Positions 979 to 32,371 of a DNA stretch of 33,064 nucleotides are shown here, piece after piece. The stretch is from a virus. Below the pieces are notes generated by a model, which did not search any database, was not told where the DNA came from, and saw only the letters and a program-made list of their open reading frames with translations. Made by a program: the position numbers and the translations under genes. Location: IMG/VR virus record IMGVR_UViG_3300030118_002532, positions 1 through 33,064 of that record. One strand, written 5' to 3'. How positions within the stretch are numbered: the stretch's first letter is position 1; each line of letters begins with the position of its first letter.

Positions 979-2853
979 TCATTTTACATCGCCCCAAGTT
1001 GGACCTTTCTCATAGTCCACCTTATTCTTTACTGCAAGTTTAACTGCATCTTGCATTATTGCAATAATTTTTTGAGCTTGGTGCTCAGACTGAACAGATA
1101 TATCAAGTTCATCATGCACTTGTATATGTGGTGTAATACCTTCTTCATACAAATCTAGCATGGCTTGTTTAGTCATGTCAGCCGCAGAACCCTGGATTAA
1201 TTTATTCAAAGCTTTGTATGTAAAGGCTCTTCTAATTCTATCTTCACCATACTTGCCCCTCGCTTCTTCATACGTCATGGGTGCCCTTAGTTCACCTGGA
1301 GCAAACCTAGCCTCTTCCCATTTATCAAATCTACATAGTCTACCGGCAATCGTTTGAATCTCACCATCTTTTTGAGCATCTCTCATTGTGGCATCCATAA
1401 GACCTTTTACAAAAGGGACACTGTCATGGTAGTTATTAAACAATTCGTCTGCATCTTGTTTGTTTTCTAAATCTAAAGATTGTTGAAGTTTTGCTTTACC
1501 CATACCATAAAACAAACCAAGGTTAATTGTCTTTGCTTGTTTTCTTTCTATGTTTGCAAGATTAGCAACCATTCTATGGAAATCCATTTTAGGATCTTTA
1601 TTAAATTTAGATACCATTTCTACAACAGACTCAGAATTTTTTAAGATAGGATGTTGAGCTGCATAGTGTAATACTAATCTAGGTTCTTGTTGCGAATAAT
1701 CAAAACAACCCCAATCACAATCTTGTTCAGGTATAAAAAGACCACGTACTGCAGGTCCTAACAAATTGTTTCTTGAAGGTATTTGTTGTAAGTTTGGATT
1801 AGAGTATGAGAAACGTCCGGTTACAGTACCGCCTGCATCTGATCTTAACTGATTTATGTCAGCATGAATACGTCCATTGTGTTCATGTTTTAATATTGTA
1901 TCTATAAAAGTTGTGTGTGCTTTATTCAATTCTCTTGCTTCTGCAATGTTTTTTACCACTGGATTTTCATGATTTTCTAGTGTAGCTTTTGTAAATGATG
2001 GCGCGTTACTTTTGGCAGTTCTGGAATAAGGTAGTTCAAGTTTCTCAAAAACTTTGGCGATCGATCTTGCTGCCCATATTTGTACTTCTACTCCTGTTAC
2101 TTGTTTTACTTTTGCAAGGCATTGCTCTTCTCTTTTCTCTAGCACACGTTTCAGCTGAAGCGCTTTATCAACGTCTACTCGAACGCCCTTAAATTTCATA
2201 TCTACTAACATTGGAAATAGATTTGTTTCTAAGTTAAATATTCTTTGTAGGCTTTGTTGTTTTATTTGTCCTGAAAATTTTTTAAATAATTCTAAAGTTA
2301 GTTCAGCATCTTTTTCTGCGTATGCTCCAACCATGGATGCAGGTAGTTTATACATTTCTGATTTTGCATCTATACCTTTTTTATCTGCTGCATCTTGTAA
2401 GGCTTTTTCATCTTTAACTTTACCTAACTCCAAAAAAGCTAAAGAATTCAATGAGTAATACAACCTGTTTTCATCTAGTACAGCAGCCATCATCATTGTA
2501 TCAACAATGATTCCATTTATTTTTACACCATAAGATCGTAGCCAACACACGTCGTACATTGCGTTGTGAAATATTTTAGGACATGGTAATGCACAAATAC
2601 TTTTTACCCATTTCATAACCGCTTCTTTAGCAAAGAAGTTACCTTGTTCATGACCAAAAGAATAATATCCAGACCAACCATCCACTGCAACAGCTATACC
2701 AATTATTTCACCATTACCTCTTATAGAACCAGAACCCATCTTTTTAAGATCAGGATCTTTTGTTTCTAAGTCGATAGCTATATATTTATAACTACTTAAA
2801 TCTTTGAACTCTTCTGGAGAGTTCCATATTTCTTCGTTAAATAAATTCTCCAT
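979..2853 (-). CDS. polA: DNA polymerase, family A (3'-5' exonuclease + polymerase)
   Basis: Replicative DNA polymerase of 624 aa with an N-terminal proofreading exonuclease and a C-terminal polymerase, and no 5'-3' exonuclease domain. Exo motifs: I IDLET (residues 27-31), II HNAMYD (96-101), III YAEKDAEL (178-185). Polymerase motifs: A DYSQQEPRL (385-393), B RKQAKTINLGLFYGMG (437-452), C VHDELD (579-584). In motif B the residue equivalent to E. coli Phe762 is Leu445 (codon at 1519-1521). This is the Leu762 type described for many environmental phage polymerases, which is thought to affect speed and nucleotide selectivity. The start overlaps the DUF3310 gene by 17 bases, so the two are probably coupled. 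Family assignment is secure; the biological meaning of Leu762 is inference. Confidence 0.97.
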   Translation of the reverse strand: MENLFNEEIWNSPEEFKDLSSYKYIAIDLETKDPDLKKMGSGSIRGNGEIIGIAVAVDGWSGYYSFGHEQGNFFAKEAVMKWVKSICALPCPKIFHNAMYDVCWLRSYGVKINGIIVDTMMMAAVLDENRLYYSLNSLAFLELGKVKDEKALQDAADKKGIDAKSEMYKLPASMVGAYAEKDAELTLELFKKFSGQIKQQSLQRIFNLETNLFPMLVDMKFKGVRVDVDKALQLKRVLEKREEQCLAKVKQVTGVEVQIWAARSIAKVFEKLELPYSRTAKSNAPSFTKATLENHENPVVKNIAEARELNKAHTTFIDTILKHEHNGRIHADINQLRSDAGGTVTGRFSYSNPNLQQIPSRNNLLGPAVRGLFIPEQDCDWGCFDYSQQEPRLVLHYAAQHPILKNSESVVEMVSKFNKDPKMDFHRMVANLANIERKQAKTINLGLFYGMGKAKLQQSLDLENKQDADELFNNYHDSVPFVKGLMDATMRDAQKDGEIQTIAGRLCRFDKWEEARFAPGELRAPMTYEEARGKYGEDRIRRAFTYKALNKLIQGSAADMTKQAMLDLYEEGITPHIQVHDELDISVQSEHQAQKIIAIMQDAVKLAVKNKVDYEKGPTWGDVK

Positions 2854-3058
2854 AATCTCTTTCCAGAATCATTTCTAAATAATGAATTGCTTTTTTAATG
2901 TCGTAGTGTTTACCTTTCCTAGAATGCCTACAGATATACTTAATAGCATTCCCTTCCGCAAAAAGCAATTTGTTTTGATTTATAAACTCAGCTGGCTGAA
3001 TTTTAAAATCTTGATAGTGATTTCCTTGAACTTGTTTGTCCAATGATTTATATGACAT
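2837..3058 (-). CDS. DUF3310 (SaV-like) small protein
   Basis: A 73-aa protein matching the DUF3310 pattern: a Tyr-containing N-terminus (HYQDFKIQPAEFI, residues 14-26), then a central AIKYICRHSRKGKHYDIKKA (38-57) and a helical C-terminus. The family is common in phages of many hosts and has no firmly known biochemistry; some annotations call it a nucleotide kinase-like protein. It overlaps the upstream helicase stop by 11 bases and the downstream polymerase start by 17, so it is embedded in the replication operon. That fits a role in nucleotide or DNA metabolism, but the function is not established. Confidence 0.85.
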   Translation of the reverse strand: MSYKSLDKQVQGNHYQDFKIQPAEFINQNKLLFAEGNAIKYICRHSRKGKHYDIKKAIHYLEMILERDYGEFI

Positions 3059-4592
3059 AACCCATACCCTCCTCTGATTGTAGTAAATAAAGTCTTTGTT
3101 TAGTTCTTGTTACACCAACAAAAAATAATCTGTGTTCATTATCTGGTGACTTTTCAAACTCACCTTCAATAAAATTACTTTGATATTCATCTGCACCAAA
3201 GTCTGTAAATAAAACTACGTTATCACATTCTTTTCCTTTTGATCCATGCAACGTAAGTATTTTAATATCTGCTTCTTTTAATAAATCATAATTGTTTTGT
3301 ATAAGATGTTTCATAAAAGTTTTTGTATCTTCATCAAAGTCAAGGTGTTCCCAACTACCTTCAACAAGTAAACCATGGTTTTGTTTTAATTCTTCTAAGG
3401 TTACAGAGTACACACTGTCCAAAGTTTTACCACTTGCAAACCCTCTTTTCAGATGTCCTAGTTTTACTTTTAAAAAAGAATACATAACCTTTACATCTTT
3501 GGCATCAATGCTTGCGCCATTGTTTAATCTTTTCCAAGTTGCGTAGGCTAACATAGAATTTTTATCTAGGTACTTATCACCTGCAAATTCGTATCTTAAT
3601 CCTTGCATATACAAATGGTCTCTTGCTTTCTCACAAAGTTTGTTAGTTCGGCCAAGTATCATCCATTTACCTTTTGTAAAATCTACATCTGATAGTGAAA
3701 CATTGTGATGTACTTCTCCTTCCTCGTCTCTCGGTTCCCAATTCTTTTCTCTACGTTCACCAATTCTATTTAATATATTTAAAGCCACTCGATGCACGCT
3801 CCTCGGTACTCGTCTCGACTTAACTTGTTCATCGATAACACCTTCTAGATTTATAAATGTAGATGCGTCTGCACCTTGAAAACCATAGATAGTTTGATCG
3901 TCGTCTCCAGCGATGTATGATCTTGTAGCTAGTTTCTCGAGTTCAAAGAACATATCCCATTGCAATGCGTTTAGATCCTGAGCTTCATCCAAAAACACAA
4001 CATCAAAAAAACTATCTTTATTTTTTATCTTATCGGTAAATAAACCTATCATGTCATAGAATTCTATAATGCCAGTGTCTTTTTTATACTGGGTCAGGGC
4101 CGCATCGATTTTTTCTGCGATACCAATATCAGCCCAACCTGCCATACCTTTTTGTATTGCAGCTTCGTTTATAGATATCTTTTTATTTTTAGCGTAGTCT
4201 CTTGTAGTTAGTATTGGATCTTTGAATCTAGTTTTACCTGTAATAGGATCAATACTCATTTCAGTATTTAATCTATTTGCAATTGGTTCATAAAGTTTGA
4301 ATTGATTCCATTGGCTATTACCTTTTAATAGTTTTGAATTCACATCAATGTTTAGTTCTCTTACACCTAATGCATGCATGGTTCCTATGTAACCAAGTCT
4401 TTCTTTTGGAAAGAGTTCTTCAAATCTCTCTGTTGCTTCTTCTGCCGCTGATTTACTAAAAGTAATATAGCAAATCTTTTTAGGATCAGTTTTGTTTTCT
4501 TTTATTTCTTTTGTCATATAGTGATTTAACAATCTATATGTTTTACCAGTTCCTGGTGGTCCAGGTATTACTGTTCTATCTTTCTTTTCCAT
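3048..4592 (-). CDS. UvrD/Rep-like superfamily 1 DNA helicase
   Basis: A 514-aa SF1A helicase. Walker A is GPPGTGKT (residues 11-18). Motif Ia is TFSKSAAEEA (44-53), the Walker B region is VVFLDEAQD (198-206), motif III is AGDDDQTIYGFQGAD (228-242), motif V is TLHGSKGKE (447-455) and motif VI is FVGVTRTKQRLYLL (491-504). All core ATPase and helicase motifs are intact. It is shorter than cellular UvrD/Rep (about 670-720 aa), suggesting trimmed accessory subdomains. It overlaps the primase gene by 25 bases and DUF3310 by 11, which implies coupled expression. The likely role is 3'-5' unwinding during phage replication or recombination. Confidence 0.93.
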   Translation of the reverse strand: MEKKDRTVIPGPPGTGKTYRLLNHYMTKEIKENKTDPKKICYITFSKSAAEEATERFEELFPKERLGYIGTMHALGVRELNIDVNSKLLKGNSQWNQFKLYEPIANRLNTEMSIDPITGKTRFKDPILTTRDYAKNKKISINEAAIQKGMAGWADIGIAEKIDAALTQYKKDTGIIEFYDMIGLFTDKIKNKDSFFDVVFLDEAQDLNALQWDMFFELEKLATRSYIAGDDDQTIYGFQGADASTFINLEGVIDEQVKSRRVPRSVHRVALNILNRIGERREKNWEPRDEEGEVHHNVSLSDVDFTKGKWMILGRTNKLCEKARDHLYMQGLRYEFAGDKYLDKNSMLAYATWKRLNNGASIDAKDVKVMYSFLKVKLGHLKRGFASGKTLDSVYSVTLEELKQNHGLLVEGSWEHLDFDEDTKTFMKHLIQNNYDLLKEADIKILTLHGSKGKECDNVVLFTDFGADEYQSNFIEGEFEKSPDNEHRLFFVGVTRTKQRLYLLQSEEGMGYVI

Positions 4593-6124
4593 GATGGTTC
4601 TTGACTTTCATATTTTGGTTCTAATGGTTCAACAGACATTATCTTTAACATCTTAAAACAACGAACTGTCTTACCATTTATTTTTGGATAATCCTCTGTT
4701 ACATTCAACAGAGTTTGTAATTTCTGTACCACGACATGTTTTGGATATCTTTTATCTGACCATTTATTTTTTAATAAATGTCTCCAGAAGTCTTTCATTT
4801 TAAAATAACTATGCAGGTCATCAGTATATGCTACACCTCTTTGAATATCATTTATGTCTTTACCCTTAACTTTATTTACAAAGTCTTCTAAGTATTCTCG
4901 TAATTGGTTATCTACTTTAAGGTCTTCAGTTGCTTTCATGTCTGTAGTTTGTTTTTCTTCTAAAAGTTTTATTAACATTTTACGCCATATTATTTTTGCA
5001 ATTGGCATTTGTGGTTTACCTATTTGTTCTAGACAGGCCATAGAAAATTTATCCGGATCATGAAGAACAGCAGTATCAACAATGACTGTTTCACCATCAA
5101 TATCACAGAAGAATAATGGTGGGTCTGAGTTATACTTTCTTATTTGAGATATGGTTTGTACTGGTGCATCACCATCACCTACACCAAATTTCTTTGTCAT
5201 ACATAGTTTAGCATTACAAAAAGATACCAATGGCTCATCTTTACATTTATAAAAATATTCTTTTCGTTCTAATGATTCCTGAGTCTTTACAAGTTCTGAT
5301 GCATTGATAGGTGGTTTAAAATATTTTATATTGTAATGATTCATTTTCTTTTTCCATAAATCATCTTCAGAAAATCTTTTCTTTAGATATACACCTAAAC
5401 TATACATAGTTTCATTTCTGATCCCTTCACCAACACCCTCAGATAGTAACGTAACTAAACATGGTGGCATTTCATAAAAGTCATCTTCTTCTTTTTCTTT
5501 TAATTCTAACTTTTTAAATTCATCTACTGATAAAACATTTTTATCATAATGTTTGAAAAACTTTTCAATGTCTAGCATTGCATTACCTTCACTATCAAAG
5601 GCATATCTCACAGTGTTATCTAAGTTATGGTATGGTAAATTTAAAAAACTACCAACATCACCACGTTCAATATTTATTTTTTCTTGTTTTGGAAATATCT
5701 CTGCTCTTGCATGACCAATAGCTGCTGCATATGTTTTCAATTTATCTCGCATCATAACTGCAGGGACTGGTTCTTTTGTAAATAAAAATAAATGTGCACC
5801 ACCTGACTTTGATCTAAAAACTGTAAGTGGTATTTTTTTCTTTTTTAAATCTTGTACTATTTCTTTGTGATCTAATGGATACACATCCCAATCAATACAT
5901 CCCCATATACAAGTATTATCTCTACGTATTGGAATGATACCTAGTGCAGGATCTGTACCTTTTAAATGATCCAACCACATTTTTTCTGTAGGTGGTTCTG
6001 AAATAGTTTTAGATATAGTTACGTTTTTACCTTTTGCAGATACCTCACCTGTTTTACGTGTTTCACCACGGGCTATGTCTAAGCCTTCAAATATACTTTT
6101 AAATTTTTTTAATACTTCTGTCAT
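4568..6124 (-). CDS. archaeo-eukaryotic-type primase (TOTE-like AEP domain)
   Basis: A 518-aa protein with an AEP-type catalytic core in the N-terminal half. The metal-binding motif is IDWDVYP with D78 and D80; the second motif is SKSGGAHLFLF with S107 and H111; a later conserved stretch is GSFLNLPYHN (158-167). The arrangement matches the primase domain described in TOTE conflict systems and in many phages. The C-terminal part has a Cys cluster (C294, C303, C308) that may bind metal, followed by a helical domain without a recognised helicase. It therefore acts with separate helicases, and the UvrD-like gene starts inside its 3' end. The RBS is weak (ACAGGAT directly before the ATG). The primase assignment is strong; whether it also has polymerase activity is unknown. 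Confidence 0.88.
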   Translation of the reverse strand: MTEVLKKFKSIFEGLDIARGETRKTGEVSAKGKNVTISKTISEPPTEKMWLDHLKGTDPALGIIPIRRDNTCIWGCIDWDVYPLDHKEIVQDLKKKKIPLTVFRSKSGGAHLFLFTKEPVPAVMMRDKLKTYAAAIGHARAEIFPKQEKINIERGDVGSFLNLPYHNLDNTVRYAFDSEGNAMLDIEKFFKHYDKNVLSVDEFKKLELKEKEEDDFYEMPPCLVTLLSEGVGEGIRNETMYSLGVYLKKRFSEDDLWKKKMNHYNIKYFKPPINASELVKTQESLERKEYFYKCKDEPLVSFCNAKLCMTKKFGVGDGDAPVQTISQIRKYNSDPPLFFCDIDGETVIVDTAVLHDPDKFSMACLEQIGKPQMPIAKIIWRKMLIKLLEEKQTTDMKATEDLKVDNQLREYLEDFVNKVKGKDINDIQRGVAYTDDLHSYFKMKDFWRHLLKNKWSDKRYPKHVVVQKLQTLLNVTEDYPKINGKTVRCFKMLKIMSVEPLEPKYESQEPSWKRKIEQ

Positions 6125-6181: not shown

Positions 6182-6907
6182 CTATTTACCGGCGAATGAG
6201 TTGTGAAACTTTTTCGCTCTTTCGTAGAGTGATGAGTTATCAACCATGGCACCTCTCACGACGTTAAAGCCGTACCATTGGTTTCCTTTCCCACTGTTAA
6301 GTACAGAAGACAGGATGTATTTATGACTGTAAGTAGCAGGAGTGAAAGGACCATTTTTGCCTTCAAGTGTAATTGAAGCCATCATTGAATTCCATTTTCT
6401 ACTCACTTTACCTTGAGAAGAACTCATAGAGATTAAAGCAGGTTCCGTAATGTCACCATCTACAATCAGAACAAAATGTTGACCGACTGTGAGAATGTAG
6501 TTTCCATTATCGAGACGATCTTTTCCGCCTGGATCTTTGGTAGTCTTACTAAGAATGTCCGAACTCGCATCAAAGATGTTTTCCGGTCTACCTGAACCTG
6601 TACCAAAATCTGCCCACTCTTGATATTCAAGTTTGTAATAGCAGGGTACAACCTCTATTCCTTTTGCACCATCGTAGACTTTTTTAGTCACGGTGTTTAA
6701 AAACATACCTGGTTCTGCACCTTCAACGTAATTTTGATTACGCTTCTGAGCTTCTCCAGATCCGTTTTGTAAAAGTTTTAGAATTGGTAAAGCCAGATTT
6801 TCTGTCTTCACGTTTTCTAAACCTTGTGCTGCATCTGCTTCAAATAAAATATCTGAAGGCAGATTATCTTTTTTTATAGTCACTTGTTTCTCGTTACTAG
6901 TTTCCAT
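6182..6907 (-). CDS. putative single-stranded DNA-binding protein
   Basis: A 241-aa soluble protein. After a charged N-terminus, residues 36-44 (TENLALPIL) begin a compact domain with GAEPGMFLNTVTKKVYDGAKG and IEVVPCYYKLEYQEW, followed by a long Gly/Ser-containing region and a final domain with PATYSHKYILSS. This layout resembles a family found in marine phage replication operons that is often labelled ssDNA-binding or recombination-associated. The acidic C-terminal tail usual for SSB proteins is absent (it ends NSFAGK). It has a strong RBS (AAAGGAG) and lies two bases after the preceding gene, upstream of the primase and helicase. An ssDNA-binding role is the best fit but not proven by motif. 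Confidence 0.55.
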   Translation of the reverse strand: METSNEKQVTIKKDNLPSDILFEADAAQGLENVKTENLALPILKLLQNGSGEAQKRNQNYVEGAEPGMFLNTVTKKVYDGAKGIEVVPCYYKLEYQEWADFGTGSGRPENIFDASSDILSKTTKDPGGKDRLDNGNYILTVGQHFVLIVDGDITEPALISMSSSQGKVSRKWNSMMASITLEGKNGPFTPATYSHKYILSSVLNSGKGNQWYGFNVVRGAMVDNSSLYERAKKFHNSFAGK

Positions 6908-6908
6908 G

Positions 6909-7487
6909 TTATCTCCTTTTTATTTTTGTACTGTTACCCGAGTAGATTTTAAAAACGTCAGAAGGCATCTCAAGATTATTCTCAAGACGCTCTCTGACTA
7001 GCGCTTTCAGGGTCACAGCATGAACTGTCTCGCGCTGAATAGGTTCAAAACCTTGACCCTTCGCAAGTTCTGCATATTGCAGAGCCTTGTTATCTTCGTC
7101 CCGACCAAAGGTAACAGTGATATCATTTTTGATAATATCACCTAGGCCGTTTTCTCGAAGCCATTTAAAAGCTTTTGATCTTCTATCAAAGAAATCAGAA
7201 TCGTTCTCTCCTCTTCCTTGTGATATTGATGCATAGTAAAATGGTTTTACTTCTACTGATTCACCATCTTTAAGCTTTAATTTTGTAATATTCATTTCTT
7301 GCATCATCTTAGGTATCTCTACTTCAGATAATACTTTTGCTTTTTCTTTTAATTTTGAAATACTATTTTCTGCATTAGAAATTTCGTCTTCAATATTTTT
7401 TAATTCAATAACTTTATTAGACAGAGAAGCTGCGGCATCAATTTGATTTACAGATTCTAGTCTATCTTCTTCATAATTAATTGTCAT
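6909..7487 (-). CDS. conserved phage protein with N-terminal coiled coil (192 aa)
   Basis: A 192-aa protein. Residues about 25-65 form a predicted coiled coil rich in Glu/Lys/Ile/Ser. A small beta-like segment follows (ITKLKLKDGESVEVKPFYYASI), then a helical, charged C-terminal half ending in basic KIKRR. No catalytic motif is recognised. It is the first gene after a near-consensus promoter (7508-7536) with a good RBS (AAAGGAA), and it is directly followed by the ssDNA-binding-like gene and the primase. Co-transcription with replication genes suggests a replication accessory or recombination-partner role. That is inference. Confidence 0.78.
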   Translation of the reverse strand: MTINYEEDRLESVNQIDAAASLSNKVIELKNIEDEISNAENSISKLKEKAKVLSEVEIPKMMQEMNITKLKLKDGESVEVKPFYYASISQGRGENDSDFFDRRSKAFKWLRENGLGDIIKNDITVTFGRDEDNKALQYAELAKGQGFEPIQRETVHAVTLKALVRERLENNLEMPSDVFKIYSGNSTKIKRR

Positions 7488-7507
7488 ACAATTCCTTTCG
7501 TAAATTG

Positions 7508-7536
7508 TATATAATCCTAGACTTTTCTTTTGTCAA
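7508..7536 (-). promoter_or_regulatory. candidate sigma70 promoter for the replication operon
   Basis: On the minus strand TTGACA (7536-7531) is followed after exactly 17 bases by TATATA (7513-7508). The -35 is a perfect consensus and sits two bases beyond the stop of the 7539-7877 gene. The -10 is about 20 bases upstream of the next ATG, leaving room for the AAAGGAA ribosome binding site. It would drive the coiled-coil protein, ssDNA-binding-like, primase, helicase and polymerase genes. It is one of the strongest promoter matches in the window. Confidence 0.65.
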
Positions 7537-7538
7537 TA

Positions 7539-7877
7539 TTATTTTTTAAATAAATCTATTTCTATTGGGTAGTAAGTTTTTTCTTGTCTATCCCATTTTA
7601 AAAATTTAAACTTTCCATTTGTCATATCAGAAACAACTGCACAAATAACACCAATAGTTGCAGGGTCACCAGATAATAAAAGGTAGTCTTCAGATGTAAA
7701 GTCTTTTAGAAGCGTTCTAAGTTTCTGAATTAATGGACCAGGTGAAAGTATCATTTGAGAATACATAGGTAATAGAGTTTGAATGTCTCCATACTTTGCT
7801 GCACCCATAACATTATATTTAGGTTTACCTGTTTCTTTATCGATAGGTATCTCTTGAGTTAAATAAACTTTCGCCAT
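7539..7877 (-). CDS. conserved marine-phage protein of unknown function (112 aa)
   Basis: A 112-aa protein with a distinctive, clearly conserved-looking sequence: VYLTQEIPIDKETGKPKYN at the N-terminus, LLPMYSQMILSPGP in the middle, LLLSGDPATIGVICAVVSD (residues 66-84) and LKWDRQEKTYYPIEIDL near the end. Proteins of this type recur in marine phages next to replication genes; no biochemical function is known to me. It is the first minus-strand gene after the divergent gap at 7878-7923 and so is probably an early gene. No membrane segment or metal site is apparent. Confidence 0.8.
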   Translation of the reverse strand: MAKVYLTQEIPIDKETGKPKYNVMGAAKYGDIQTLLPMYSQMILSPGPLIQKLRTLLKDFTSEDYLLLSGDPATIGVICAVVSDMTNGKFKFLKWDRQEKTYYPIEIDLFKK

Positions 7878-7904: not shown

Positions 7905-7924
7905 TTTTTTTAAATAGAAAGCAA
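7895..7924 (-). promoter_or_regulatory. candidate divergent promoter for the 7539-7877 gene
   Basis: On the minus strand TTGCTT (7924-7919) precedes TATAAA (7900-7895) with an 18-base spacer, 17 bases before the ATG at 7877. It overlaps the candidate plus-strand promoter, so the two directions could compete for RNA polymerase. Support is moderate because of the base composition. Confidence 0.4.
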
Positions 7925-8721
7925 TGATTATATCACATAAGCACAAGTTAATCTTTATAAAACCTCTTAAAGTTGCAGGTACTTCTTTTGAATTAGCGTT
8001 AAGAAATTATTGTGGTCCTGATGATATAATAACTCGATGCACTCCGACAGATGAAAAAGTAAGTTTGAAAAGAAATAAAGTTCACGATCAAAATCATCAA
8101 AATGGGGCAAAGTATTTTGATCATATTGTAGGTTTAGATATTGATTATGATCATGTTAGACACATCACAAACAATGATTGCTATCAAGTTTACGACGGGT
8201 TTACCCGTGTTTATGAACCCAATAGTCAAAGATACTACAATCATATATCGGCCAGAAAAATTAAAAAAAGAATAGGTGAAGATATTTTTAATTCATACAC
8301 AAAGATATCTATTATAAGACATCCAATTGACTATGCTATATCTAGTTATTATTTTTTTAATTTAGATGCAGCTGGTGTTACTTTTAAAGATCACGCATTT
8401 AATTTACCTATCAATGAGTATGATCGGTTTTATGAGATAGATCAAAAATATATAATTGATTTTACAATTAAATATGAAAATCTAGAATCGGATATACTAA
8501 CTCTTGAAAAGAAAATACCTGGACTCAAAGGATTAAAAGACAGAATGAAAACTTTTAAATCAAAAATACGTAGGGTTAAAACAGCTAAAGATAAAACTCC
8601 CGGTATGCGCGAACGTCCAGAAACAGCTACACCCCGATTAATTAGAAACAATTTTCCAATAGCTTGTGATTTTTTAATGAGAAAATTCGATAAATACTGT
8701 GGAAAATTCAATTATAAATAG
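7924..8721 (+). CDS. sulfotransferase-like protein (PAPS-dependent type)
   Basis: A 265-aa protein with the two cofactor-binding signatures of PAPS-dependent sulfotransferases. The 5'-phosphosulfate loop is FIKPLKVAGTSFELAL (residues 11-26, with K13 and the G19-T20-S21 turn). The 3'-phosphate site is ISIIRHPIDYAISSYY (129-144, with R132 and S140/S141). A conserved-looking C-terminal segment (RNNFPIACDFLMRKFDKYCG) ends the protein. It would move a sulfuryl group from PAPS to an acceptor that cannot be told from sequence; cell-surface sugars or small metabolites are possible. It opens the three-gene plus-strand island that also holds an APS-kinase-like gene. The RBS is weak (AGAAAG before the ATG). 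The fold assignment is good; the substrate is unknown. Confidence 0.82.
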   Translation: MIISHKHKLIFIKPLKVAGTSFELALRNYCGPDDIITRCTPTDEKVSLKRNKVHDQNHQNGAKYFDHIVGLDIDYDHVRHITNNDCYQVYDGFTRVYEPNSQRYYNHISARKIKKRIGEDIFNSYTKISIIRHPIDYAISSYYFFNLDAAGVTFKDHAFNLPINEYDRFYEIDQKYIIDFTIKYENLESDILTLEKKIPGLKGLKDRMKTFKSKIRRVKTAKDKTPGMRERPETATPRLIRNNFPIACDFLMRKFDKYCGKFNYK

Positions 8722-8773: not shown

Positions 8774-10204
8774 ATGTTCTACAAATTTAAAACTAAGCCT
8801 TTTGCGCATCAGCTCAAAGCCTTAGAAATGTCTTGGGATAAAGAAGTATATGCGTATTTCATGGAAATGGGTACGGGTAAATCAAAGGTATTGATTGATA
8901 ATGTATCTATGCTTTATGACAAAGGCGATATAAATGGTTTGCTTTTGATTGCACCTAAAGGTGTATATAAAAACTGGTATGACTCTGAAATACCTACACA
9001 CATGGCTGACCATATTGAAAAGAAAGCAGTTCTTTGGACTGCATCACATACCAAACCAAAACTAAAAGAACTAAATACTTTGTTTGAAACAGGAACTGAT
9101 CTACATATTTTAATTATGAATGTTGAAGCGTTCTCTACTAAAAAAGGTTTAGATTTTGCTGCTAAGTTTTTAGCATCTCATAAATCTATGATCGCTATCG
9201 ATGAAGCTACAACTATAAAAAATCCATCTGCTAAAAGAACTAAAAACATTTTAAAGATCGCAAAAGATTCTAAGTACAGAAGAATACTTACAGGTTCACC
9301 TATTACAAAATCACCATTAGATTTATATTCTCAGTGTGAATTTTTAGATACAAGTCTTTTAGGTCATCATTCTTTTTATACATTTAGAGCAAGATACGCT
9401 GTAATGCGTAATATGAATTTAGGTGCTAGAACGGTTCAAGTTGTAGTTGGATATAGAAATCTTGGTGAGCTGTCCGATAAACTTAAACCTTTTTCTTACA
9501 GAGTTTTGAAAGAAGATTGTTTGGACCTACCTAAAAAAACTTGGATGAAACGTACAGTTTCTTTAACCCCTGAGCAAGAAAAAGTTTATAAAGAAATGAA
9601 ACAAACTGCATTAGCACATTTAGATGGCAAAGTTGTGACTACAAGCACAGTCTTGACACAATTAATGCGTTTACATCAAATTACTTGTGGTCATTTTGTG
9701 GCTGATGATGGGTCAACAAAAGACTTACCTTGTAGAAGAGTTGATGAACTTCTAGACATTATTGAACAGGTTGAGGGTAAGGTTGTTATTTGGGCCCAGT
9801 ATCAAAGAGATATTAACAAGATTATAAATGCAATAGCAAAAGAATATGGTGATGATAGTTATGTTGATTATTATGGATTAACACCTCAAGAAAAAAGACA
9901 AGATAATATAAAGAAGTTTCAAGAAGATGACAAGTGTAGATTTTTTATAGGTACGACACAAACCGGCGGATATGGTATCACATTAACTGCTGCAAGTACA
10001 ATGATTTATTTTTCTAATGGTTATGATTTAGAAAAGAGACAACAATCAGAAGCTCGTATAGATCGTATTGGTCAAACAAAACCAATGACATATATAGATA
10101 TTATTTCTGAAGATACAGTTGATGACAGAATAGTTTTAGCGTTACGTAAAAAGCAAAACATTGCAAGTCAGATTATGGGTGAGGAAATCAAATCTTGGAT
10201 ATAA
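8774..10204 (+). CDS. SNF2-type superfamily 2 helicase/ATPase
   Basis: A 476-aa SF2 ATPase with both RecA-like lobes. Motif Q-like KPFAHQLKAL (8-17), motif I MGTGKSK (32-38), motif II IDEAT (142-146), motif III LTGSP (172-176), motif IV VVIWAQYQRD (337-346), motif V TGGYGITLTAAS (397-408), motif VI QSEARIDRIGQ (424-434). The DEAx box and the R-I-D-R-IGQ box are typical of the SNF2 group, which often translocates on DNA without strand separation. Phages carry such proteins in replication or early regions. With the UvrD-like protein it is one of two helicases here, and no DnaB-type helicase is seen. Its 3' end overlaps the kinase-like gene by 10 bases, so the two are co-expressed. Confidence 0.93.
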   Translation: MFYKFKTKPFAHQLKALEMSWDKEVYAYFMEMGTGKSKVLIDNVSMLYDKGDINGLLLIAPKGVYKNWYDSEIPTHMADHIEKKAVLWTASHTKPKLKELNTLFETGTDLHILIMNVEAFSTKKGLDFAAKFLASHKSMIAIDEATTIKNPSAKRTKNILKIAKDSKYRRILTGSPITKSPLDLYSQCEFLDTSLLGHHSFYTFRARYAVMRNMNLGARTVQVVVGYRNLGELSDKLKPFSYRVLKEDCLDLPKKTWMKRTVSLTPEQEKVYKEMKQTALAHLDGKVVTTSTVLTQLMRLHQITCGHFVADDGSTKDLPCRRVDELLDIIEQVEGKVVIWAQYQRDINKIINAIAKEYGDDSYVDYYGLTPQEKRQDNIKKFQEDDKCRFFIGTTQTGGYGITLTAASTMIYFSNGYDLEKRQQSEARIDRIGQTKPMTYIDIISEDTVDDRIVLALRKKQNIASQIMGEEIKSWI

Positions 10205-10599: not shown

Positions 10600-10755
10600 A
10601 CTCATTAAAACAAAAGCTGCTGTTCCAATTAATAGTCTTTCTATTCTTACTATTTGTGCTTTTAGTTCTTTGATTTGATCAAATGTTTGTCTTTGCATTA
10701 TTCTACAAAGTTTTTCATGAGCTTCTATTTTTTCTAACGCTGATTTTCTAGGCAT
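10579..10755 (-). CDS. small XhlA/holin-like protein (58 aa)
   Basis: A 58-codon frame starting MPRKSALEKIEAHEKLCRIM. A charged helical part (residues 5-40) is followed by a hydrophobic segment (LLIGTAAFVLMSLF, 41-54) and a short positive end. This layout resembles the XhlA-type haemolysin/holin-associated family, with a cytoplasmic coiled coil and one C-terminal membrane anchor. The ATG overlaps the stop of the 1320-aa gene (ATGCCTAG), and AGAGGA seven bases upstream is a good RBS. Its 3' end overlaps the converging kinase-like gene by 21 bases. A lysis-related role fits the position at the end of the late block but is not proven. Confidence 0.65.
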   Translation of the reverse strand: MPRKSALEKIEAHEKLCRIMQRQTFDQIKELKAQIVRIERLLIGTAAFVLMSLFDKLL

Positions 10756-13700
10756 TATTAATTCCTCTAGATCTTAATCTTATTTGTTTTTCTGTAGGTG
10801 ATAGATACGCTTCTTCTGTAGGCGTTAGTCCTGAAGCCATCATCGGGTTTTGTTGTACTGGTGTTTTAAACATACCAGGAGCAGGCATTGGAGTTGGTGG
10901 TAATCCCTGTGTTGATGATTGTTGACCCATCGTATTTAATCTTGGAAGATAATCTTGTAGTTTAAGATTAAATGGTTCACTTAAACTTTGGTTTTCAAAG
11001 TCTTTAATCATCAGTTTAATTAAAGGTTCCGCTGATAGATATGGATTAGGAACACCAGACTCTTCAGCATTTCTTTCAAATCTTGCTTCAATATTTTCCG
11101 ATGGTTCAAATGGATTAAACTTACCTCTTAATAATCTTTTCAATGTTTTTTTAGATAAATTTCTTCTATCAAACACGTCTTTTAATTCTTTATCTGTTAC
11201 TCCTAAAGTCTGCGCAGCGTTTAATGCTTGCATCATGTCTCTTTGTGTTTCAAATAACTTTTGATTAGCTATAAAAAATCTTTCAATAACTTCTTGTGGA
11301 GTTTTTCTGGTGCCACTTAAAACTCCATATTTACCACCAGTAAAATTTTTTCTATCTTCAGATTGACTTTTTTGAAAAGCACCAAGATAAAAATCTAAAC
11401 CTCTTTCTGGGTTTATTTTAATTGGTCTCATTCCAAATATACCTGCAATCTCTGGTCCTATTTCATATGTAGTTGGACCTTTTCCTGGCTCACCAGTGAT
11501 GGCTTTAAATGTTCTTGTAAAAGGTTGTGTTGAAGGTAACATTGTTTTTGCTAAGTGTTGAAATATAATATTATATTTTTCCATTTCAGGTGTACTTTCA
11601 CCATATAATTGATACCCTTCTCTAGTTCTACCACCTCTTGAATAAATATCCATGAACGCTTCTGTAAAGATAGATTCAGAAATAAAAGGTGAAGCAGTTG
11701 ATGCAGCGGCATCTACAAGCCCTTTAAAGAAACCTTTTGTTAAAACTTCTTCGTCTTCTATACCTTGTTGAATATTAAATAAAACTGTTTGAAACGGTCT
11801 TGTTAACGTATCGTACACATTGTTTTTAGACCAATCTATGTAGTAAAACTCTCCTGATGTTGGATCCTTAAATACAATTTTCTGTGAATCTCTAGCCCAT
11901 GGAGCAACAAAATAATTAATTGCATCTGCTTCTTCATTTGTAACACCGAATATTTTTTTGGATCCTTCAACGATAGCGTATGGTAATGCACCTGCTGTAA
12001 AAGTCATACCTGCAAGTCTTTTCATACCAATACCTCTTGTTACTGGATTTTTTAATTCTTTTAATCCTTGTTTGTAAATACCAAACCCTGTTCTAAATAT
12101 TTCTGAAGGCCATGACATAAAATTACCAAAAGGTGATACACGCATTGATCTTACAAACTGACCTACTCTTGCATAATTAGGCACTGTATTTTTTACTATC
12201 TCTGCTACTTGTTGTTTTATATCTTGAGGAATAGGTAAACCTTTTTTTGCATAAGCATTTCTTAATCTAGCAAGTTCTACTTCAAAATTATATATCTTCC
12301 AAAAATCATCTTCTGCAACATATGCATCTTGAAAAGCTTTACCGGTTTTCTTTATACCTTTACTAACGTTTTTACCTAATGATCTTAGCATTGGAAATAA
12401 AACACTATCAGTTGCAATATTACCTTCACCAAATCTAACATCTTTCATAAGATTTCTAAGGTCACCTAATCTAACGTTTGTATTTACAATACCTAAATCT
12501 AAATACTCTCTATACTTAGCCATAGCTTCTGGTTGTCTCATACCTACTTGAACTACTTTTCTTGCATTATTCATAGCCTCTGCAACTAATTTTGGACTTG
12601 TAAGTAATGTACCATTAGCAAGAGCAAAAGCTCCCGAGCTTAAAAAGTTTCTTATATGTGTAGGTATAGATAAAACAGTTTTAGCAAACTGTGCTCCAGC
12701 TTTTGGAGTTAACAATCCATATCTATATATACCGGACAATGTTCGACCTAATGGGCCTTGACCTTTTGCTTCACCTCTTAGCCAGTTTTGCATTTGTGAT
12801 ACACTTTCAAAACCCTCTGCCACATCTTTAGATGTGTAAACATTTTCATCAGGAAAATATTTATTTAATTCCTCTGGAAGTTTTGTAACAGGAGTCTTTG
12901 GTCCAAAAGCTTCTTTAGCAGCTCTAGGTGTAGCATGAAAAAATCCTCTCATACCAAACGGTGTTTCAGGAGTAATTTTTGATTTTATTAATTTATCTGC
13001 ATCAAGCATATCTTCAAATAATTCTCCTCGTCTCGCGATTGTAGATAATCGACCCACAGCTTCATAGATTGAGTGACGAGCGTCTTCTATTTCACCGAAT
13101 AGTTCTCTAAATGCTTTACTTCCTTTACCTATAACTTCAAAACTTTTCTTACCGTCAGGTAAATTTCTTTCTAATGTTTGTGCAAACGTTTTAATATTGT
13201 ATGGAGTATCTGCACCTTTAGTTAAGTTTACATATTGAAAAGAAGGTAGTTGATCTTTTTTAGGATCCATTCTTCTAACACTATCTACAATATCATTGAC
13301 ATAACCTTCTGCAGTCGCTGGAGTTATGGGTTGACCATTTTTAGCTGCATAACGCATAAATATATTTGCAACTCTATCAACTGTATCTCTTGTTGGCTTA
13401 TACGCTTGTAAAAAACCTGCTTCTCTATTTTCAAATATTTCAAAAGTATTAGCTAAACTATCTTTTACTCTTTTACCTAAAAGACCTGAAAACGTTCCTT
13501 GTAAGCCTGGAGGTAAGTCTTGAGCTGTAGGTGAATTACTAGCTATCTTTAAAAGATCGACAAAATAATTTCTACTATTTTTTATTCCATTTAAAATAGT
13601 TTCTATCGCTTCAGGAGTTGCACCTTGTTTACTTAATGTATCTACTAATTTAAATTCTGAAACCTCGTCTAACCCTTTTGTTAAATCACCTTCAAATAAA

Positions 13701-14710
13701 AGATCATTTAATTGTTTGAATATTTGTTTTCTTTCTTCAACGTTTGCGGTGTAGAAAAACTTTTTAGTTTCTGGAAATATTTTATCTATTTCTTTATCTA
13801 TTCTTTTAACCTGTTCCATAGCAAAATTAGTATCAACCATTTTACTTGCTGACTCTTGTTCTTTTGCTAAAGCTTGTTGAATTGGTTTCATTCCTCTAAA
13901 TCTAAATGTGCCACCAAACTTATCTAAATTTCTTTCTATTGCATCATCACTATAAGCTAAGTCTTCTGCTTTTTTTGTAAGTAATTTAGAAATTCCTCTT
14001 GTTATTCCATACACAGCTGGTGTGATTAATGTAGATTCAGAACCAAATTTAAATCTATTTACTAATTTTCTTAAAGCATCTTCACTTAAATCTTCTTTTT
14101 CTCTTCTGTCTAGTTGTGTAGGGCCTGCACCAAAAGCATCTCCAATAGTTCCTAGCTTCTCGACGTCCGCTACCATTGTCTCGCCTACAGCACCACCGGC
14201 AACCACAGCTCCAAACTTTTGTCTACCTGTCAATCTATTTAATTTTTTTGCTGCGTCTGCTCCTTGCTTGACATTTTTACTAGCAACATTAAGATAGTTG
14301 CCAGCTTTTTTTGCATTAATAGCTTTTGTAGCTAGTTTAGTTGCAACCTTTGCACCTATAGTTCCAGGTATACCTATTTGAACTAGAGCTTCAGTTAATC
14401 TTCCGACAGCTCTTTCTTGTGCAACTTCTTCAAAAGGATTTATTTTATCAAAAAATTGTTCAACACTAACAGCTGTGTTTGTATCTAAACCTAAATCAAT
14501 TAGTTCTGCTCCTAAAGATACAACACCTTCAGGAACTTTTATTAATCCAGAAGCTATACCTGCAACACCTGCAGTAATAGATGATACTTCATTATTGTCT
14601 TCTGCGTCAGGTGTAAGAAAACCTTCACCTTCTTCTAGTATAAATTCTTCAGTGCTTCTATCTGATTGTGAGGACTGGTTTTGCTCCATCAATTCTCTTA
14701 ATGTTGCCAT
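10748..14710 (-). CDS. large internal virion / DNA-ejection-type protein (1320 aa)
   Basis: The largest protein in the window. An acidic N-terminal head (residues 1-40) precedes Gly/Ala/Val-rich hydrophobic stretches near residues 45-75 and 165-185, then a very long helical, Lys/Arg-rich body. Another hydrophobic patch is at MTFTAGALPYAIVEG, and the end is Pro/Met/Gln-rich with LTPTEEAYLSPTEKQIR. No lytic transglycosylase or peptidase motif is seen. It is the last large gene of the structural block, after three other internal-virion-like genes, as with the large ejection proteins of podoviruses such as T7 gp16. Hydrophobic patches in an otherwise soluble protein fit a membrane-crossing role at infection. 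Function is inferred from position, size and composition. Confidence 0.72.
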   Translation of the reverse strand: MATLRELMEQNQSSQSDRSTEEFILEEGEGFLTPDAEDNNEVSSITAGVAGIASGLIKVPEGVVSLGAELIDLGLDTNTAVSVEQFFDKINPFEEVAQERAVGRLTEALVQIGIPGTIGAKVATKLATKAINAKKAGNYLNVASKNVKQGADAAKKLNRLTGRQKFGAVVAGGAVGETMVADVEKLGTIGDAFGAGPTQLDRREKEDLSEDALRKLVNRFKFGSESTLITPAVYGITRGISKLLTKKAEDLAYSDDAIERNLDKFGGTFRFRGMKPIQQALAKEQESASKMVDTNFAMEQVKRIDKEIDKIFPETKKFFYTANVEERKQIFKQLNDLLFEGDLTKGLDEVSEFKLVDTLSKQGATPEAIETILNGIKNSRNYFVDLLKIASNSPTAQDLPPGLQGTFSGLLGKRVKDSLANTFEIFENREAGFLQAYKPTRDTVDRVANIFMRYAAKNGQPITPATAEGYVNDIVDSVRRMDPKKDQLPSFQYVNLTKGADTPYNIKTFAQTLERNLPDGKKSFEVIGKGSKAFRELFGEIEDARHSIYEAVGRLSTIARRGELFEDMLDADKLIKSKITPETPFGMRGFFHATPRAAKEAFGPKTPVTKLPEELNKYFPDENVYTSKDVAEGFESVSQMQNWLRGEAKGQGPLGRTLSGIYRYGLLTPKAGAQFAKTVLSIPTHIRNFLSSGAFALANGTLLTSPKLVAEAMNNARKVVQVGMRQPEAMAKYREYLDLGIVNTNVRLGDLRNLMKDVRFGEGNIATDSVLFPMLRSLGKNVSKGIKKTGKAFQDAYVAEDDFWKIYNFEVELARLRNAYAKKGLPIPQDIKQQVAEIVKNTVPNYARVGQFVRSMRVSPFGNFMSWPSEIFRTGFGIYKQGLKELKNPVTRGIGMKRLAGMTFTAGALPYAIVEGSKKIFGVTNEEADAINYFVAPWARDSQKIVFKDPTSGEFYYIDWSKNNVYDTLTRPFQTVLFNIQQGIEDEEVLTKGFFKGLVDAAASTASPFISESIFTEAFMDIYSRGGRTREGYQLYGESTPEMEKYNIIFQHLAKTMLPSTQPFTRTFKAITGEPGKGPTTYEIGPEIAGIFGMRPIKINPERGLDFYLGAFQKSQSEDRKNFTGGKYGVLSGTRKTPQEVIERFFIANQKLFETQRDMMQALNAAQTLGVTDKELKDVFDRRNLSKKTLKRLLRGKFNPFEPSENIEARFERNAEESGVPNPYLSAEPLIKLMIKDFENQSLSEPFNLKLQDYLPRLNTMGQQSSTQGLPPTPMPAPGMFKTPVQQNPMMASGLTPTEEAYLSPTEKQIRLRSRGINNA

Positions 14711-31909: not shown

Positions 31910-32371
31910 TTAAATGTAATGCAACATAAATTCTGGGTCAGCAACAGTCCCCAAAACTTCGTCGTCGTTAAGAATACGGACTTCTCCGCCTTCTATTGGT
32001 AATCGTGATCCAGCGTACCTTGCAAAGATCACCCAATCTTTTTCTTTACACCATGCGCCTTCAGGAAATTTTTCTTTATCCTTATATGCGTCTGGTCCTA
32101 TTTTTAAAACATAACCGCAGTTAGTTGCAATCCTTGCTTTATCTAAAGATTCTTGTGAAAATATTAAACCACCTTTTGTTTTTTCTTTTGGTGTAAAAGG
32201 TAAAACTAAAAGTCTCCAACCAGAAGGTTCTGGTAGGTTGTCTATTACTTTGTCAACGTTTGTTTCGTCGACTCTTTTTAATTTCTCTTCTTTATCTTGC
32301 TCTTTATATTTTTCTTCAAGAGCCATTTTTATCTTCGGGCTTTCCGAAGTCGATAACGTTTCCTTGCTCAT
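31910..32371 (-). CDS. groES: phage GroES-like co-chaperonin
   Basis: A 153-aa protein with an N-terminal charged helical extension (residues 1-45) and a GroES domain. The domain has GWRLLVLPFTPKEKTKGGLI (51-70, containing the mobile-loop KGGLI), CGYVLKIGPDA (84-94), KDWVIFARYAGSRLPIEGG (110-128) and VRILNDDEVLGTV. The family forms a seven-membered lid on GroEL, and phage versions such as T4 gp31 help fold capsid proteins. The chosen start has a strong RBS (GGAG seven bases before ATG) but overlaps the upstream gene by 56 bases; the ATG at 32326 would reduce this to 11. Its place before scaffold and capsid genes supports a capsid-folding role. Confidence 0.85.
   Translation of the reverse strand: MSKETLSTSESPKIKMALEEKYKEQDKEEKLKRVDETNVDKVIDNLPEPSGWRLLVLPFTPKEKTKGGLIFSQESLDKARIATNCGYVLKIGPDAYKDKEKFPEGAWCKEKDWVIFARYAGSRLPIEGGEVRILNDDEVLGTVADPEFMLHYI

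Follow-up and report, generated by a model that had tools for sequence, protein, structure and literature searches.

The virus record IMGVR_UViG_3300030118_002532 (33,064 bases; the whole stretch is hereafter the window, and is probably an incomplete fragment) carries a conserved set of replication genes that we take, with moderate confidence, to be a self-contained phage replication module in which a UvrD-like helicase would serve at the fork instead of a DnaB or gp4 ring. The analysis yielded gene identities and motifs, a conserved cassette, a primase and helicase that strictly co-occur, and no ring helicase detectable in relatives; that the fork is opened by the SF1 protein we infer, with 3'-to-5' movement taken from the precedent of UvrD, PcrA and Rep. 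In the arrangement proposed, the AEP-PriCT-winged-helix primase would lay primers and may help in origin recognition; the product of the next gene, the UvrD-like SF1A helicase, would unwind the fork, taking over the task of such a ring; PolA, bearing Leu762, would replicate both strands, possibly assisted by strand displacement; the OB-fold protein gp34 would cover single-stranded DNA; and the SNF2 motor would remove or remodel protein on duplex DNA, acting as a roadblock remover.

Table 1. Features of the replication module in the window, numbered from its first base
Feature	Position	Strand	Basis or remark
Pam3 gp32-like protein, cassette-conserved, function not assigned	7539..7877	-	PF23992 2.2e-29
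Pam3 gp33-like protein, cassette-conserved, function not assigned	6909..7487	-	PF23984 5.1e-30
Pam3 gp34-like protein, predicted OB-fold ssDNA-binding	6182..6907	-	PF23977 1.6e-56
AEP primase, 518 aa	4568..6124	-	AEP domain, PriCT-like Cys region, C-terminal winged helix
AEP catalytic domain, residues 1-207	5504..6124	-	VIA match to CAPP 7nqf, invariant residues
AEP catalytic residue D78	5891-5893	-	
AEP catalytic residue D80	5885-5887	-	
AEP catalytic residue H111	5792-5794	-	
PriCT-1-like region	5195..5464	-	Invariant C222, C294, C303, C308; candidate Zn or Fe-S ligands
Predicted winged-helix domain, residues 403-500	4625..4918	-	VIA matches
UvrD/PcrA/Rep-like SF1A helicase, 514 aa	3048..4592	-	PF00580 5.4e-31
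DUF3310 protein, between helicase and PolA	2837..3058	-	PF11753 8.2e-10
Family A DNA polymerase (DNA_pol_A and 3'-5' exonuclease)	979..2853	-	Pfam
PolA Leu at the 762 position (residue 445)	1519-1521	-	
SNF2-type SF2 ATPase, divergently transcribed	8774..10204	+	PF00176 2.9e-24

Successive genes of the window overlap on the same strand, primase and helicase by 25 bases, helicase and DUF3310 by 11, and DUF3310 and PolA by 17. Upstream of the primase lie members of the gp34, gp33 and gp32 families (6182-7877), followed by the divergent SNF2 gene (8774-10204, +). A sequence-only reading of this DNA had named an AEP primase with D78, D80 and H111 at 4568-6124, accompanied by a UvrD-like SF1 helicase, a PolA and an opposite-strand SNF2 ATPase; coordinates, strand and residues proved correct, and the four proteins were recovered as matches to AEP-TOTE, PF00580, DNA_pol_A and PF00176, respectively.

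The primase ORF matched the Pfam domain AEP-TOTE (PF22548; 1.2e-13, 51.6 bits against a cut-off of 27) and phrog_21866, 'primase' (6.6e-87), and contains CIDWD at residue 76 and SGGAHL at residue 107. D78, D80 and H111 are invariant in an alignment of 11 divergent phage primases, in which the window sequence shares 23-39% identity with the rest, and also in 46 close relatives; invariance at such low identity places the assignment far from chance. With the hhDhD and sxH catalytic motifs and the AEP fold of the superfamily all present, the ORF is, by sequence and model, an AEP primase predicted to synthesize primers. A profile of the family found, among PDB entries, the primase-polymerase domain of Marinitoga CAPP (2.7e-15). 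Structure prediction, which the sequence-only reading had proposed, gave an AlphaFold model (pLDDT 85.9, pTM 0.62) in which residues 1-207 adopt the AEP fold and align with CAPP 7nqf (VIA Z 20.5, 2.5 A over 186 residues; Foldseek 1.9e-10), CAPP primase-polymerases being the nearest solved structures to this domain. The window primase did not reach the NCBIfam model PrimPol_Msp (26.4 bits against a cut-off of 200). CAPP (PDB 7nqd, 7nqe, 7nqf and 7p9j) shares not only this fold but a Cys-containing, PriCT-like C-terminal region, whereas the window primase has no CRISPR genes and no TPR domain, bears an extra winged helix, and lies in a phage replication context. The earlier label 'TOTE-like' holds for the Pfam domain but is a domain name only: the gene belongs to a phage replication operon that relatives share, not to a defence island, and a TOTE conflict system was rejected.

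Beyond the AEP domain, the Pfam match to PriCT-1 is marginal in the window (0.033) and significant in several relatives. The cysteines C222, C294, C303 and C308, invariant in both alignments (11 and 46 sequences), probably form a metal site. A PriL-like Fe-S domain composed of these residues was considered and rejected, PriL being absent from the fold searches and Pfam favouring PriCT-1, for which a relationship to PriL has itself been suggested (PMC5862659). Residues 403-500 aligned by VIA with 5vfx (Z about 8, near the level that unrelated folds can reach) and with SCCmec Cch 5dgk (Z 7.2), matches suggestive of a winged helix; in primases of other mobile elements such a domain is thought to bind the origin (PMC5862659).

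The solved proteins nearest to the product of 3048-4592 are UvrD and PcrA, and its UvrD-type motifs include GDDDQTIYGFQGAD. By sequence it is a UvrD/Rep/PcrA-type SF1A helicase, expected from its relatives to unwind 3' to 5'. Translocation in the UvrD family runs 3' to 5', whereas DnaB and T7 gp4 travel the other way. Placed at a fork, such an enzyme would run along the leading-strand template, like CMG in eukaryotes (PMC12593628).

Primase and helicase are distributed together. Among 50,697 phage records the primase occurs in 24, exactly the 24 with strong matches to the window helicase (the top 23 records, at E <= 2e-27, and Kokobel2, where the end of the record splits the helicase gene). 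The two genes lie on one strand and less than 1 kb apart in 82 of 85 loci, and primase, UvrD, PolA, SNF2 and gp34 were found together in all 24 loci having enough flank. A UvrD domain is present in 86/86 of the records described below and gp34 in 36/36 of those inspected for it, with SNF2 in 33/36; the SNF2 gene occupies the strand opposite the primase in 35 of 41 loci. The primases of R5C and DMU1, used as queries, retrieved only one and three loci, respectively. Several named phages already bear annotations for primase, helicase and PolA. In Kokobel2 (L003) the helicase gene, at 45031-45880 and 12-632, is cut by the start of the linear record, which accounts for its absence from the annotation.

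No DnaB_C match was found in the 33-kb window, but the window is a fragment whose own silence proves little, and the absence of DnaB was therefore tested in relatives. The set of 86 records, related and not independent, comprises the window, 75 IMG/VR contigs that may be incomplete and ten named phages deposited complete (DSL-LC04, 023Pt_psg01, Kokobel2, ct3Et533, HTVC027P, HTVC023P, R5C, DMU1, Pan1 and VLCpiS6a), all ten of which carry the replication module; the window virus has an 87%-identical relative, the L012 contig. Searched over whole records, DnaB_C exceeded its cut-off in none of the 86, while all four positive controls (T7 gp4, HTVC019P, HMO-2011 and P22) were recovered; the sole sub-threshold match (G021:43251-43409, E 0.005, 11 bits) was judged to be P-loop noise. 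Profiles for AAA_25 (RecA-fold helicases), IstB/DnaC and D5_N, run on subsets of 21 to 27 module records, gave nothing above cut-off, the weaker AAA_25 matches falling mostly on P-loops of UvrD or SNF2 genes. Neither a DnaB or T7-type gene nor a D5 or DnaC-like gene was thus detectable in the relatives searched, in keeping with the earlier reading that no DnaB or T7-type primase-helicase was visible; a DnaB hidden elsewhere is rejected for the relatives. Because the window is a fragment, the rest of this virus's own genome could hold a gene of the DnaB or gp4 type, but with no DnaB above cut-off in 85 related records, ten of them deposited complete, we regard that as extremely improbable.

Another source of a ring would be the host, whose DnaB, brought by a phage loader, could unwind phage DNA while the UvrD-like protein served as an accessory. 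Some phages, lambda and P2 among them, use host DnaB. Host dnaG and Pol III genes also rise during infection by HTVC027P (PMC12753301). Against this, no IstB/DnaC-type loader scored above cut-off in 21 module records (weak partial matches being confined to R5C, Pan1 and 023Pt_psg01), and phages that encode their own primase and polymerase normally bring a helicase as well (PMC5862659). We rank this explanation third, as rather improbable.

The main rival dispenses with a fork helicase altogether: PolA with Leu762 would open the fork by strand displacement, leaving the UvrD-like protein an accessory in recombination, repair or primer clearance. The O-helix of the window PolA reads RKQAKTINLGLFYG, with Leu at position 762, and this residue recurs in 58 of 60 module loci, as the rival would have it; the exceptions, R5C (L007) and Pan1 (L009), have Phe762, an additional gene of the UvrD type and genes annotated as clamp or clamp loader, and carry the module in a more elaborate form. 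On their own, UvrD-type helicases have poor processivity, and they are usually employed in repair or rolling-circle replication, which counts against a fork role, as does the arrangement in the Acinetobacter and Klebsiella relatives, where the helicase adjoins PolA several kb away from the primase. Keown 2022 observed strand displacement in vitro by 2 of 5 primer-extending Leu762 and 5 of 15 Phe762 viral PolAs, and proposed it for SNF2-carrying phages, although the activity was clearest in two Phe762 enzymes and at high enzyme concentration (PMC9069017). For an accessory, moreover, the UvrD-like protein is strongly retained, being present in every record and tracking the primase exactly. It is this strict retention that leads us to favour the UvrD-like protein as fork helicase over its rivals, and to consider polymerase-driven opening possible but on the whole unlikely.

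The cassette also appears to supply a single-stranded DNA-binding protein. The gp34 model (pLDDT 89.7, pTM 0.81) drew no significant Foldseek match, RPA ranking first; VIA-align placed the phiC31 RDF at Z 8.6 and the RB69 and T4 gp32 cores at 6.4 and 6.2 over about 155 residues, and listed BRCA2, RPA and bacterial SSBs as well, all but the phiC31 RDF scoring below 8, a level that on its own is weak evidence. Since the list is consistently filled with ssDNA-binding OB folds, and given the replication context, gp34 is likely an OB-fold SSB, its binding of ssDNA being predicted from the model. Its relatives (PF23977) occur in 492 of the 50,697 phage records, those entries seen being mostly annotated as hypothetical, and are not exclusive to the module: of three such records inspected, two have Pol III-type polymerases, and in all three gp34 is preceded by two small genes and a helicase (or an unnamed gene as large as one). 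Acidic tails, for example ...DAEEF, ...ADNF and ...KKTPF, close the sequences of relatives from phages of E. coli, Xanthomonas and Pseudomonas. In ct3Et533 (L004) a gp34 homologue lies at 13704-14597 on the plus strand, overlapping a minus-strand hypothetical gene of the record's annotation (13914-14663) that is probably a misannotation.

The C-terminal ends of gp34 and the primase have a feature in common. In 100 dereplicated primase-gp34 pairs, compared with 848 other ORFs from the same loci, the last residue is aromatic in 68 gp34 and 59 primase sequences, against 6% of the background ORFs and 0-7% in the other five module proteins; proline followed by an aromatic end (-PF type) terminates 44 gp34 and 35 primase sequences and none of the 848. 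In both tails the last residue is far better conserved than the preceding 15. Tails of one kind (-PF, -SF, -IV or -EF) are often borne by both proteins of a genome among loci L001-L316, as with ENIV and QDIV in HTVC027P or EAVF and KEVF in L081. Bacterial and phage SSBs bind partners by such acidic tails, and in T7 the acidic C-terminal tails of gp4 and gp2.5 contact the polymerase gp5, docking helicase-primase and SSB upon it (PMC12593628, PMC5686142). By likeness to that system, the ends suggest that primase and gp34 dock on a partner through their tails and that this partner may be shared, a contact that, like all others within the module, we infer. A tree-based test of tail co-change was negative (1 shared branch against 0.56 expected, p = 0.44), and joint docking is accordingly only suggested. 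In the window's own clade the acidic tail of gp34 has been lost and the primase end of the window is no longer aromatic, so that the tail reading does not apply directly to its proteins. The broadest proposal, that the 3'-to-5' UvrD-like SF1A protein is the true fork helicase of a widespread phage replisome and that matching -PF-type tails of primase and gp34 engage one shared site on the polymerase or the helicase, replacing the gp4/gp2.5 tail coupling of T7, is put forward tentatively and with low confidence.

The sequence-only reading had further regarded this replisome as unusual in that its primase and helicase are separate chains belonging to different superfamilies. The description is accurate, but the arrangement is a normal one, found in DnaG/DnaB and in HSV UL52/UL5. 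UL5 is of the 5'-to-3' type; it is T7 that differs from the module, its ring helicase being fused to a DnaG-like primase. In the herpesvirus UL5-UL52-UL8 complex an AEP-type primase and an SF1 helicase work together as separate chains (PMC12695949), whereas the window helicase resembles UvrD/PcrA and its pairing with the primase is a proposed one. Nor is the module itself rare. Nasko 2018, in the portion of the text available (PMC6302109), describes virioplankton contigs of the Leu762 Group II PolA with neighbouring UvrD-like (68%) and SNF2-like helicase genes, the PolA group accounting, in one estuarine sample, for 16.4% of reads on PolA contigs. That portion reports no ring helicase for the group; it classes helicases and RNRs, does not name the AEP primase or the gp32-gp33-gp34 cassette, and deals with contigs that are not complete genomes. 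Pelagiphages of the HTVC023P type (HTVC027P, HTVC023P and 023Pt_psg01) have the same order as the window, gp32-gp33-gp34-primase-UvrD-DUF3310-PolA with SNF2 on the opposite strand (PMC9599517), but their primases are only 23-38% identical to that of the window and their gp34 keeps the C-terminal tail that the window protein lacks. With these precedents, together with Keown 2022, the module must be considered already known. What we did not find in the open-licence literature searched is the test for DnaB in complete genomes, the finding that primase and helicase co-occur exactly, the assignment of gp34 as an SSB, and the shared tails.

Should the UvrD-like protein prove to be the fork helicase, phage genomes of 40-80 kb would be replicated without a ring helicase, against the replisome rule. 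Marine viruses commonly carry the module, which occurs also in phages of cultured SAR11, Acinetobacter, Klebsiella and Dinoroseobacter, and because its phages have cultured hosts the question is open to experiment. As a probable SSB, gp34 would give a function to the whole of its widely distributed family.

Several other genes of the window deserve mention. A conserved 216-aa protein following PolA (319-969) has no Pfam or NCBIfam match; it is called PurM in pelagiphage annotation and 'ferredoxin' in PHROGs, and both names look doubtful. Between gp32 and SNF2, an ORF at 7924-8721 (+) is a possible sulfotransferase (PF03567, E 0.0014, below cut-off). A 1320-aa protein without a PHROG match (10748-14710) may be a large internal virion protein, and a GroES-like co-chaperonin (31910-32371) lies near the capsid genes, as in HTVC023P-type pelagiphages.
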